In this document: positions 42,689 to 45,053 of the stretch, one piece after another
How the letters are laid out: each line of letters begins with the position of its first letter
How positions within the stretch are numbered: the first letter of the stretch is position 1
Origin: Prosthecobacter sp. SYSU 5D2
GTDB lineage: Bacteria; Verrucomicrobiota; Verrucomicrobiia; Verrucomicrobiales; Verrucomicrobiaceae
Reading direction: 5' to 3'
Length of the DNA stretch: 64,000 nt
Assembly: GCF_039655865.1 (NCBI RefSeq)
Contig: NZ_JBBYXL010000001.1
Location: 558,001-622,000 of the forward strand
Translations under genes and position numbers: made by a program
The notes under the pieces: generated by a model
What the model was told of the DNA's origin: nothing
The model's input: the letters and a program-made list of their open reading frames with translations, nothing else
Databases searched by the model: none

Positions 42689-43492
42689 ATGTGGGAATTC
42701 CTAAAACAGCACTGGCGCGATGGCGTGGAGATCCTCATCCTCGCTGTGCTGGTCTATCAGGCCTTCCTGTTCTTCCGGGCCACCCGTGGTGCCCGCATCC
42801 TGACGGGCTTGTTGATGCTCCTTCTGGGCCTCGCCCTGGTCTCGCAACTGCTGGAGCTGGAGGTCATCACCTGGCTGCTCCAGCGCATCTCCGTCTTCCT
42901 GGCCATCGCCCTGGTCGTCCTGTTCCAGCCGGAACTGCGCCGTGTCCTGGCGGAGTTGGGCAGCCACCGCATGTTCTCGCTCAACCGCCCGGACCCGGAA
43001 TCCCTGGATGTCCTTTTGGAGGCCATGCAGCAGCTTTCCGCCCGCCGCTGCGGAGCTCTCTTTGCCATCAAGCGCGGCATTGACCTGCGTCTGCTGGCGG
43101 AAACCGGCGTCAGTGTGGATGCCAAACTCTCGCCAGAACTCATCACCACCATCTTTCATCCCAAGACCGCACTGCATGACGGCGGGGCCATCATTGACCA
43201 GGGCCGCATCGCTGCCGCTGGCTGCGTCTTCCCCGTCAGCCAGCGGGAGGTGCGGGACCGCGCCATCGGCCTGCGCCACCGAGCCGCCATGGGTGTGACG
43301 GAGGAGACCGATGCCATCGCCCTCATCGTCAGCGAGGAGAGCGGTGCCCTCTCCATCGCCTACCGGGGCAAACTGGAGCATGATCTTGAGCCTGACGAGC
43401 TGCGCCAGCGCCTGAACGAGCTGCTGACTTATGGGGCAGCGGCTGCTGAACCTTTAGCGGAGGAACCGACGCGTGACCTGGGGCCAGTTTAA
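42689..43492 (+). CDS. cdaA: Diadenylate cyclase CdaA
   Basis: 267 residues. N-terminal membrane helices (about 12-30, 36-52 and 64-80) precede the DAC domain. LFQPELRRVLAELG and FHPKTALHDGGAIID (about 156-170) contain the catalytic Asp164-Gly165; the usual D-G-A motif is D-G-G here. GLRHRAAMGVTEETDAI has the RHR motif (196-198). It condenses two ATP to the second messenger c-di-AMP at the membrane, controlling K+/osmolyte balance and wall homeostasis. Its end overlaps the next small gene by 20 bp. The order cdaA-(cdaR position)-glmM is the conserved one. Confidence 0.93.
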   Translation: MWEFLKQHWRDGVEILILAVLVYQAFLFFRATRGARILTGLLMLLLGLALVSQLLELEVITWLLQRISVFLAIALVVLFQPELRRVLAELGSHRMFSLNRPDPESLDVLLEAMQQLSARRCGALFAIKRGIDLRLLAETGVSVDAKLSPELITTIFHPKTALHDGGAIIDQGRIAAAGCVFPVSQREVRDRAIGLRHRAAMGVTEETDAIALIVSEESGALSIAYRGKLEHDLEPDELRQRLNELLTYGAAAAEPLAEEPTRDLGPV

Positions 43493-43628
43493 ACAATTTT
43501 TCACCCGCAACTGGCGCGAAAAAATCGTCGCCATCCTGCTGGCCATCCTGTTTTGGTTCATGATCAAAAGCCAGGTCAATCCTCCGCCCCGTTACGAGCC
43601 GCCGCTGCCGCCGCTGAGGGCGGTGTGA
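43473..43628 (+). CDS. 51-residue membrane protein in the cdaR position (YbbR-like N-terminal stub)
   Basis: Starts with GTG at 43473 inside the end of cdaA, preceded by a strong Shine-Dalgarno GGAGGAA at 43459-43465. It reads TWGQFKQFFTRNWREK, then one transmembrane helix (about IVAILLAILFWFMI), then a short Pro-rich tail PPPRYEPPLPPLRAV and stop. CdaR/YbbR proteins begin the same way (short tail, N-W-x-x-K-I, helix ending in x-W-x-x-[IV]) but continue with several extracytoplasmic YbbR domains; here none exist. It is either a reduced CdaR that contacts CdaA by its helix only, or a truncated remnant. The intact start signal argues it is translated. Confidence 0.7.
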   Translation: MTWGQFKQFFTRNWREKIVAILLAILFWFMIKSQVNPPPRYEPPLPPLRAV

Positions 43629-43688: not shown

Positions 43689-45053
43689 ATGTCTGATAAG
43701 CGTCAATTCTTCGGCACCGACGGCGTCCGCGCGGTGGCCAACCGTCATCCCATGACCCCTGAGTTTGTCCTGCGCCTGGGACAGGCCGCCGCCGCCGTTC
43801 TCGGAAACCGGTCCGAAGGAGGCGAGCGCCCGCGCTGCATTATTGGCCGTGACACTCGCGCTTCGGGCGAGATGCTGGAGGCAGCGCTCATCGCTGGCTT
43901 GAACTCAGCCGGGGTGGACGTGGTGCTGGCAGGCATGGTCCCCACTCCCACCGTGGCCATGCTGTCGGCACAGACCGGGGCCAGCTTTGGTGTCGTCGTC
44001 AGTGCCTCGCACAACCCCTTTCAGGACAACGGCATCAAGTTTGTCCATGGCAATGGCCGCAAGCTCAATGATAAGACCGAGATCGCCATTGAGCAGATCG
44101 TGCTTGGCAACACCCAGGAAGCCGCCCGCCCGGAGGGGCGCAACATCGGCCGGGTAAGCCGCATGACCGATGCCGTGGAGCGCTACGTGGCCCACGCCGT
44201 GGCCAGCATGGGCGGCACCCGCCTGGATGGCATGCGTGTGGCCCTGGACAATGCCCACGGTGCCGCCGCCTACACCAGCGCCCTCGCCCTGGAGCAGCTC
44301 GGTGCGGATGTGCAGGTCTTTCACAGCGAGCCGGACGGATTCAATATCAATGAAGAGTGCGGCTGCACCCACAGCGAAGAATTGGAGCGCCTGGTGCGCC
44401 AGTCCCAGGCCCAGGCCGGCATTGCCCATGATGGTGATGCGGACCGCATCGCCCTTTGTGATGAGGAAGCCATTGCGCTTGATGGCGATGAACTGATGGC
44501 CATCGCGGCTGAGTCAATGCTGCGCAAGGGCACACTGAAGCAGAACACCCTGGCCGTCACCATCATGAGCAACTACGGTCTGGACGACCTCGTCTCCCGT
44601 CGGGGCGGCCGCGTGATCCGCACCAATGTTGGCGACCGCTACGTGCTGGAGGAGATGCATTCACGGGACCTCAACCTGGGTGGCGAGCAGAGCGGTCACA
44701 TCATCTTTGGCGACTGGGCCACCACCGGCGACGGACTCATCGCCGGTCTGCAGGTGCTCAAAATCATGAAGGAAACTGGCGAGCCGCTGAGCCAGCTCCG
44801 CAAGTGCCTGAAGAAGTTCCCCCAGGCCGCCCGTAACCTCCGCGTGCGTTCCAAGCCACCCATCACCGAGCTGGCAGATGCCCAGAAGATCATCAAGGAG
44901 ACCGAGAAGAAGCTCGGCGATTATGGCCGCGTGCTATTGCGCTACTCCGGCACCGAATCCCTGATCCGCCTGCTCATCGAAGGCCGCGATGTCGAATACC
45001 TGGAAGCCCAGGCCGACAAGATTGCCTCGGCAATCCTGGCCCAGATCGGTTAG
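43689..45053 (+). CDS. glmM: Phosphoglucosamine mutase
   Basis: 454 residues, full length. FFGTDGVRAVANRHPMTPEF at the N-terminus, the phosphoserine loop SASHNP (active Ser about 107), the Mg2+ loop DGDADRIALCD, the sugar loop GGEQSGHIIF and the phosphate loop LRYSGTESLIRLLIEG are all intact. It converts GlcN-6-P to GlcN-1-P for UDP-GlcNAc and peptidoglycan synthesis. In Firmicutes GlmM binds CdaA and restrains it, and the operon association here suggests the same. Confidence 0.96.
   Translation: MSDKRQFFGTDGVRAVANRHPMTPEFVLRLGQAAAAVLGNRSEGGERPRCIIGRDTRASGEMLEAALIAGLNSAGVDVVLAGMVPTPTVAMLSAQTGASFGVVVSASHNPFQDNGIKFVHGNGRKLNDKTEIAIEQIVLGNTQEAARPEGRNIGRVSRMTDAVERYVAHAVASMGGTRLDGMRVALDNAHGAAAYTSALALEQLGADVQVFHSEPDGFNINEECGCTHSEELERLVRQSQAQAGIAHDGDADRIALCDEEAIALDGDELMAIAAESMLRKGTLKQNTLAVTIMSNYGLDDLVSRRGGRVIRTNVGDRYVLEEMHSRDLNLGGEQSGHIIFGDWATTGDGLIAGLQVLKIMKETGEPLSQLRKCLKKFPQAARNLRVRSKPPITELADAQKIIKETEKKLGDYGRVLLRYSGTESLIRLLIEGRDVEYLEAQADKIASAILAQIG

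Follow-up and report, generated by a model that had tools for sequence, protein, structure and literature searches.

A conserved single-helix frame beside cdaA in Prosthecobacter as a putative minimal CdaR

What takes the place of CdaR when the frame between cdaA and glmM is only 51 codons long? In the cdaA-cdaR-glmM order of Bacillota, CdaR is described in PMC10243994 as touching CdaA by way of the membrane portions of the two proteins, and PMC8573169 calls its mode of regulation of CdaA unclear. The window, by which we mean the whole 64,000-nucleotide stretch of Prosthecobacter sp. SYSU 5D2 that was analysed, has such a short frame at this place. Its locus consists of the following features, numbered from the first letter of the window:

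42689..43492, + strand: cdaA, membrane diadenylate cyclase, 267 aa (PF19293 (CdaA_N), PF02457 (DAC) and TIGR00159 over cut-off)
43459..43465, + strand: GGAGGAA within cdaA, a Shine-Dalgarno-like site for the stub, 7 nt before the GTG (read from the sequence)
43473..43628, + strand: the stub, a putative helix-only CdaR, 51 aa, GTG start (open reading frame; conservation in family and class; dN/dS)
43509..43574, + strand: conserved transmembrane helix NWREKIVAILLAILFWFMIKSQ of the stub (dN/dS 0.03 in close pairs; stub profile finds CdaR N-termini; K, A and W columns near-invariant)
43575..43625, + strand: short Pro-rich tail of the stub, predicted to lie outside the cytoplasm (moderate constraint by dN/dS)
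43689..45053, + strand: glmM, phosphoglucosamine mutase (TIGR01455, 538 bits, over cut-off)

The order cdaA, stub, glmM is consecutive on the + strand. The neighbour of the stub carries the CdaA_N and DAC domains by which a CdaA is recognised (Pfam, NCBIfam), with 215 bits against TIGR00159, over cut-off. The stub overlaps the end of cdaA by 20 nt (43473-43492), and its stop is separated from glmM by 60 nt, too little to hide a further domain. It matched no family in Pfam or NCBIfam, YbbR (PF07949) included, and a search of the window's 5.87 Mb genome with PF07949 gave no match over cut-off, the best (E 1.4) lying on another contig. The stub thus combines two features of CdaR, a place directly after cdaA and a transmembrane helix at the N-terminus with homology to the CdaR helix, with the lack of the one that defines the family in Pfam, at least one YbbR domain (PF07949). 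Because this domain is missing, we do not file it as a member of the YbbR family and treat it as a reduced homologue of the CdaR helix.

The 51-codon frame is a real gene. A search with the stub matched 64 of the 68 genomes in the window's family at E≤0.005 and 65 at E≤1. When the codons that overlap cdaA are left out, pooled Nei-Gojobori dN/dS over 37 close pairs was 0.029 for the helix, 0.21 for the tail and 0.56 for the stretch just 5' of the helix; within the window's clade the helix gave 0.09, the tail 0.31 and CdaA 0.056. These pairs are not independent, and the values are descriptions rather than tests. The two shifted frames gave 1.2 and 2.3, both above 1; because matches extend across the family and codon constraint is found in the stub's own frame and not in the shifted ones, the frame is more than chance. 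A Shine-Dalgarno site was present in 54 of 145 stubs, against 18 of 145 control positions. The coordinates agree with the first-pass annotation, which had read here a GTG frame with a GGAGGAA site, overlapping cdaA and preceding glmM. That annotation had also named a strain-specific frameshift as the finding that would undo its reading; this was not borne out, since neither the window's genome nor the sampled relatives in the family have a YbbR domain over cut-off. A cdaR in decay, or a functionless short frame of other origin, might look similar in being very short, matching no family, having a variable tail and being absent from beside cdaA in some genomes, as the helix is in 12 of 216 genomes of the class. 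We nevertheless regard decay or chance as highly improbable: the helix evolves at a dN/dS of 0.03-0.09, about that of CdaA, the helix-only form recurs in 22 families, and several lineages have it fused to CdaA.

Is the helix that of CdaR, as the annotation had supposed? A profile built from stubs only was compared with 30 full-length CdaR frames chosen by their YbbR domain; its matches, which fall on the N-terminal helix, number 22 at E≤0.01 and 29 at E≤10. Against 222 CdaA proteins the same profile gave no match under E=10, and among the 1174 frames of the window (the stub's own included) the best other frame reached E=0.2. Profile-profile comparison matched the stub to the CdaR helix with a probability of 98.7% (score 58.5), in a CdaR set picked by motif, which favours the match; CdaA helices 1, 2 and 3 gave 53% (score 17.6), 0.5% and 3%. 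Three helix columns, represented in the stub by K17, A24 and W28, are shared across stubs, short CdaRs and full CdaRs: K in 100, 100 and 70%, A in 95, 95 and 93%, and W in 99, 100 and 73%, respectively. By these profile comparisons the helix at 43509..43574 is homologous to the N-terminal helix of CdaR, and the annotation's claim that this lineage keeps a helix of CdaR type is borne out. We give very little credence to the alternative that the helix was copied from the first membrane helix of CdaA itself. It draws on the 53% profile match and on MAFFT, which aligned the stubs with the CdaA N-terminus in the first alignment for structure prediction, where stubs and CdaA were mixed (an alignment of CdaA and fusion rows replaced it); however, the CdaR helices score higher, the stub profile finds the N-termini of CdaRs chosen by YbbR while finding none of the 222 CdaAs, and short CdaRs with YbbR parts have the same helix in the same place.

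We then asked how widely the helix-only form occurs. A CdaA match was present in 216 of the 285 genomes of the class, and the loci of the best 150, those with CdaAs most like the window's, were read first: 103 were helix-only, 44 had a short CdaR, one had a CdaA-helix fusion and two had neither (both checked by eye after the position filter was relaxed). The other 66, each represented by its best cyclase locus, comprised 28 helix-only genomes, nine with a short CdaR, one fusion (G162), 12 from family f102 with a possible degenerate fused helix, six with a long single-chain cyclase and ten without a helix; labels resting on 6 bits or fewer were set aside here (G533, G553, G121, G527, G495 and G565). 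Over all 216 this amounts to 131 helix-only genomes, 53 with short CdaRs, two clear fusions, 12 possible degenerate fusions, six long single-chain cyclases and 12 without a partner. A first classification by regular expression missed some CdaRs and one stub, and the counts rest on profile passes; G529 (f95), at the length limit, was assigned by hand to short CdaR and stands as a stub in an earlier profile pass and in the set used for the K, A and W columns and for covariation. The stub search added another 46 genomes from the window's family, with 43 stubs and three fusions; they are counted in the 196 (150+46) and lie outside the 150 and the 216. In G109 and G121 a wider scan placed the helix-only frame 0.6-1.2 kb downstream of cdaA, and elsewhere it adjoins, overlaps or lies near it. 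Conservation among relatives, on which the annotation's reading depended, therefore holds in the family (64 of 68 genomes) and, with 131 of 216 helix-only, in the class.

By family, the picture within the class is mixed. Of 49 families with a CdaA match, 22 have the helix-only form and 20 a short CdaR; f102 is uncertain, f96 and f108 are without the helix, and f5, f18, f88 and f99 have long single-chain cyclases. The stub as a feature of the class thus stands for those 22 families and fails for the short-CdaR families and for f96 and f108. No recognisable helix was found near CdaA in 12 of the 216 genomes (G506, G528, seven of f96 and three of f108), and the helix partner is not universal in the class; its absence from f96 and f108 implies that some CdaAs do without it. 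The loci concerned are L311, L322-L324 and L326-L328 in f96 and L281, L286 and L289 in f108, and five of the seven f96 genomes, those in which a second cyclase was read, also have a long single-chain cyclase. In G506 and G528 (L227, L228), cdaA is followed by glmM without a recognisable helix, although the helix is present in relatives that share their genus code (L162, L232). Beyond the class, the annotation's extension to Verrucomicrobiota in general did not hold for the loci examined: the 30 from other classes, taken as the best YbbR matches (221 of 387 phylum genomes had YbbR at E≤0.01), all have a full-length CdaR, the median distance between helix match and stop being 314.5 residues. A composite 30-residue helix query matched 45 of the 387 phylum genomes, once each, and its six matches outside the class fall in CdaR-sized frames (321-388 residues). 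Separately, 69 of the 285 class genomes, for example in f3 and f82, had no CdaA match at E≤1e-10; there, c-di-AMP synthesis may be missing or carried out by another enzyme.

YbbR domains were over cut-off in 29 of the 285 class genomes. Short CdaRs account for 27 of these, and the other two are G474, without a CdaA match, and G456, the sole helix-only genome with a YbbR over cut-off. In G456 the domain sits in a second, fused cyclase of 510 residues, and the helix-only frame adjoins the glmM-type cyclase. The stub genome G413 has a YbbR match below cut-off, with three stops, on another contig. The short CdaRs of the class share position and helix with the stub but keep a single YbbR domain, or two in the tested protein from f83; YbbR was matched in six of seven proteins tested, five over cut-off. 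The class also has a second kind of cyclase, single chains in frames of 402-546 aa (L336, L337, L338, L340 and L343-L349), in which a divergent CdaA part (30-36% identity) is joined to a C-terminal extracytoplasmic part. G496, which had no CdaA match in the scan, and G495, which had no helix, were counted here by frame length (504 and 473 aa). YbbR was over cut-off in that of G456 (L347), and the other five tested gave no reported match at E≤0.01. These chains combine DAC and an outside part in one polypeptide and, unlike the helix-only form, keep the outside part while their CdaA part has diverged.

CdaRs can be arranged in a series from the full protein through two YbbR domains and one to the helix alone. 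On a 90-row CdaA tree, from a quick search with SH-aLRT as the only support measure, five changes account for the stub label and two for helix-only against the rest; holding all helix-only rows together was rejected (p-AU 0.0007), and the stubs of f114 and f89 nest in the short-CdaR clade, f89 on a long branch. Since the tree rejects a single origin of the stub, at least two losses of the YbbR part are probable, the alternative being a transfer of cdaA itself from one lineage to another.

The helix is also found joined in frame to CdaA. Such fusions occur in f1/g6 (G009, G010), f1/g11 (G064, G067) and f2/g12 (G162), with a 328-residue example in L090. That of G010 is known as a contig fragment, the contig beginning within cdaA, and in G066, also of g11, the helix is unfused. 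The 342-residue fusion of G162 ends in EIRRSHP, like the separate stubs of its relatives. The tree, which was built without G162, needs two fusion events within f1, one of them forced by strongly supported branches. Over f1 and f2 together, the helix is fused to CdaA in two lineages, probably three. These natural fusions point to CdaA as the partner of the helix, and because the cyclase domain is cytoplasmic, a fused helix must start inside (N-in). In the f102 CdaAs (L303, L304, L310, L313, L314, L316-L321, L342) we observed a conserved same-frame C-terminal membrane helix, ICLxLAxxxWG. These 12 helices have a like pattern without the lysine and matched stubs with 76%, CdaR with 31% and CdaA helices with less than 1%, so that a degenerate fused CdaR helix is possible.

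The position of the stub, overlapping the end of cdaA and preceding glmM, would also suit a peptide that serves a gene further down, glmM or another, as a leader or by translational coupling, and that plays no part at CdaA. Among 146 stub genomes, 78 have the start of glmM no more than 400 nt from the stub stop (65 have no glmM in the stretch read and three have it farther away). In f2 loci, however, cdaA and the stub are commonly followed by a bioD-like gene and not glmM (L135-L154, L275); the downstream gene is bioD-like by its start, with an AAA_26 domain in the one protein tested. The retention of the stub there indicates that it goes with cdaA rather than with glmM. In addition, the amino acids of the helix are conserved and not merely the open frame, and the fusions leave no separate upstream frame to couple, which makes the coupling explanation very unlikely.

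We consider the frame quite probably the gene of a minimal CdaR, a CdaA subunit in the membrane that has kept the cyclase-binding helix and dropped the extracytoplasmic part, with binding and the effect on activity proposed from sequence comparisons. It would consist of the N-terminal transmembrane helix of CdaR and a short tail, with no YbbR domain, and would insert N-in/C-out. In unfused species it may be a constant subunit, packed on the membrane helices at the N-terminus of CdaA, and set the assembly or activity of the cyclase, and so c-di-AMP output, from within the membrane; the extracytoplasmic input of an ordinary CdaR would be lost in the window's lineage. The tail leaves room for a variant in which this minimal CdaR gained a new extracytoplasmic partner and sensing is kept by other means. 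Its constraint (dN/dS 0.21-0.31) and lineage-typical endings such as PPLPPLRAV and EIRRSHP speak for such a partner, and a length that varies by lineage, from 33 to 112 residues between helix match and stop, speaks against it; we judge it unlikely. Regulation of CdaA may be purely intramembrane, as the annotation inferred, the data themselves giving a conserved partner helix.

Structural comparisons bear mainly on the cyclase. An AlphaFold2 model of the L090 fusion, with a mean pLDDT of 78.6, a pTM of 0.58 and middling confidence in the helix, starts with three membrane helices and also shows the cyclase fold and helices at 256-274 and 277-297; no packing is drawn from it. A structure comparison in which 763 chains were aligned matched the cyclase domain, with Z about 26 to CdaA entries, and the aligned ranges among the matches listed stop short of the stub helix and are silent on its packing. 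Entry 9g69, considered as a full-length CdaA, was rejected: its title names the CdaA-DAC domain with GlmM, and the aligned range is that domain. With CdaR as query, the solved structures yielded the isolated YbbR domains 3lyw and 2kpu (E about 0.01), besides a single unrelated chain with a weaker match. When helix columns were compared with CdaA columns for covariation, the membrane part of CdaA contained 56% of the 25 highest-ranked pairs, where permutation within families gave 40% (sd 7), and 36% of the top 50, against a base of 38%; we give this comparison no weight.

The stub resembles the CdaR of Bacillota in its place after cdaA, in the type of its N-terminal helix and in the expected N-in/C-out orientation, and differs in lacking a YbbR domain, of which CdaRs of lactic acid bacteria have three or four according to a passage of PMC10243994. 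The same source mentions streptococcal CdaA-CdaR fusions, described as large; those and the fusions found here are both one chain, but here only the helix is joined to CdaA. The helix-only form fits a constant membrane subunit in which the contact is kept and the outside part is lost. The sign of the CdaR effect differs by system, since co-expression with CdaR raised c-di-AMP in E. coli (as cited in a passage of PMC8316131) and a ybbR insertion raised it in Staphylococcus aureus (in a passage of PMC11520302).

The stub would work like small transmembrane subunits of membrane enzymes such as KdpF, likewise one short helix encoded beside a large subunit; the likeness would be one of arrangement, with no sequence relation claimed. 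As far as open-licence PubMed Central was searched, neither a CdaR reduced to its helix nor any CdaR from Verrucomicrobiota turned up in a report. Probably repeated loss of the extracytoplasmic part, a kept helix and fusions together name a candidate minimal part of CdaR and suggest that the helix is the essential part of this regulator. The natural fusions are also constructs for reconstitution and for the structure of membrane-embedded CdaA. A broader reading, which we hold tentatively and as somewhat less than an even chance, is that the core job of CdaR is to give the cyclase a fourth membrane helix, on which the assembly or activity of CdaA depends, the YbbR domains being a removable sensor lost at least twice, so that the c-di-AMP of Akkermansia and relatives would depend on a subunit of about 50 residues not recognised so far. 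The f2 group is Akkermansia-like, and we take it to include, probably, Akkermansia muciniphila. According to PMC10243994, Lam et al. 2021 connected c-di-AMP released by that species with the response to immunotherapy. Two metagenome-assembled genomes titled Akkermansia muciniphila (L089, L094) have a Prosthecobacter-like CdaA and stub, with CdaAs 77% and 74% identical to that of the window, and are probably misnamed.
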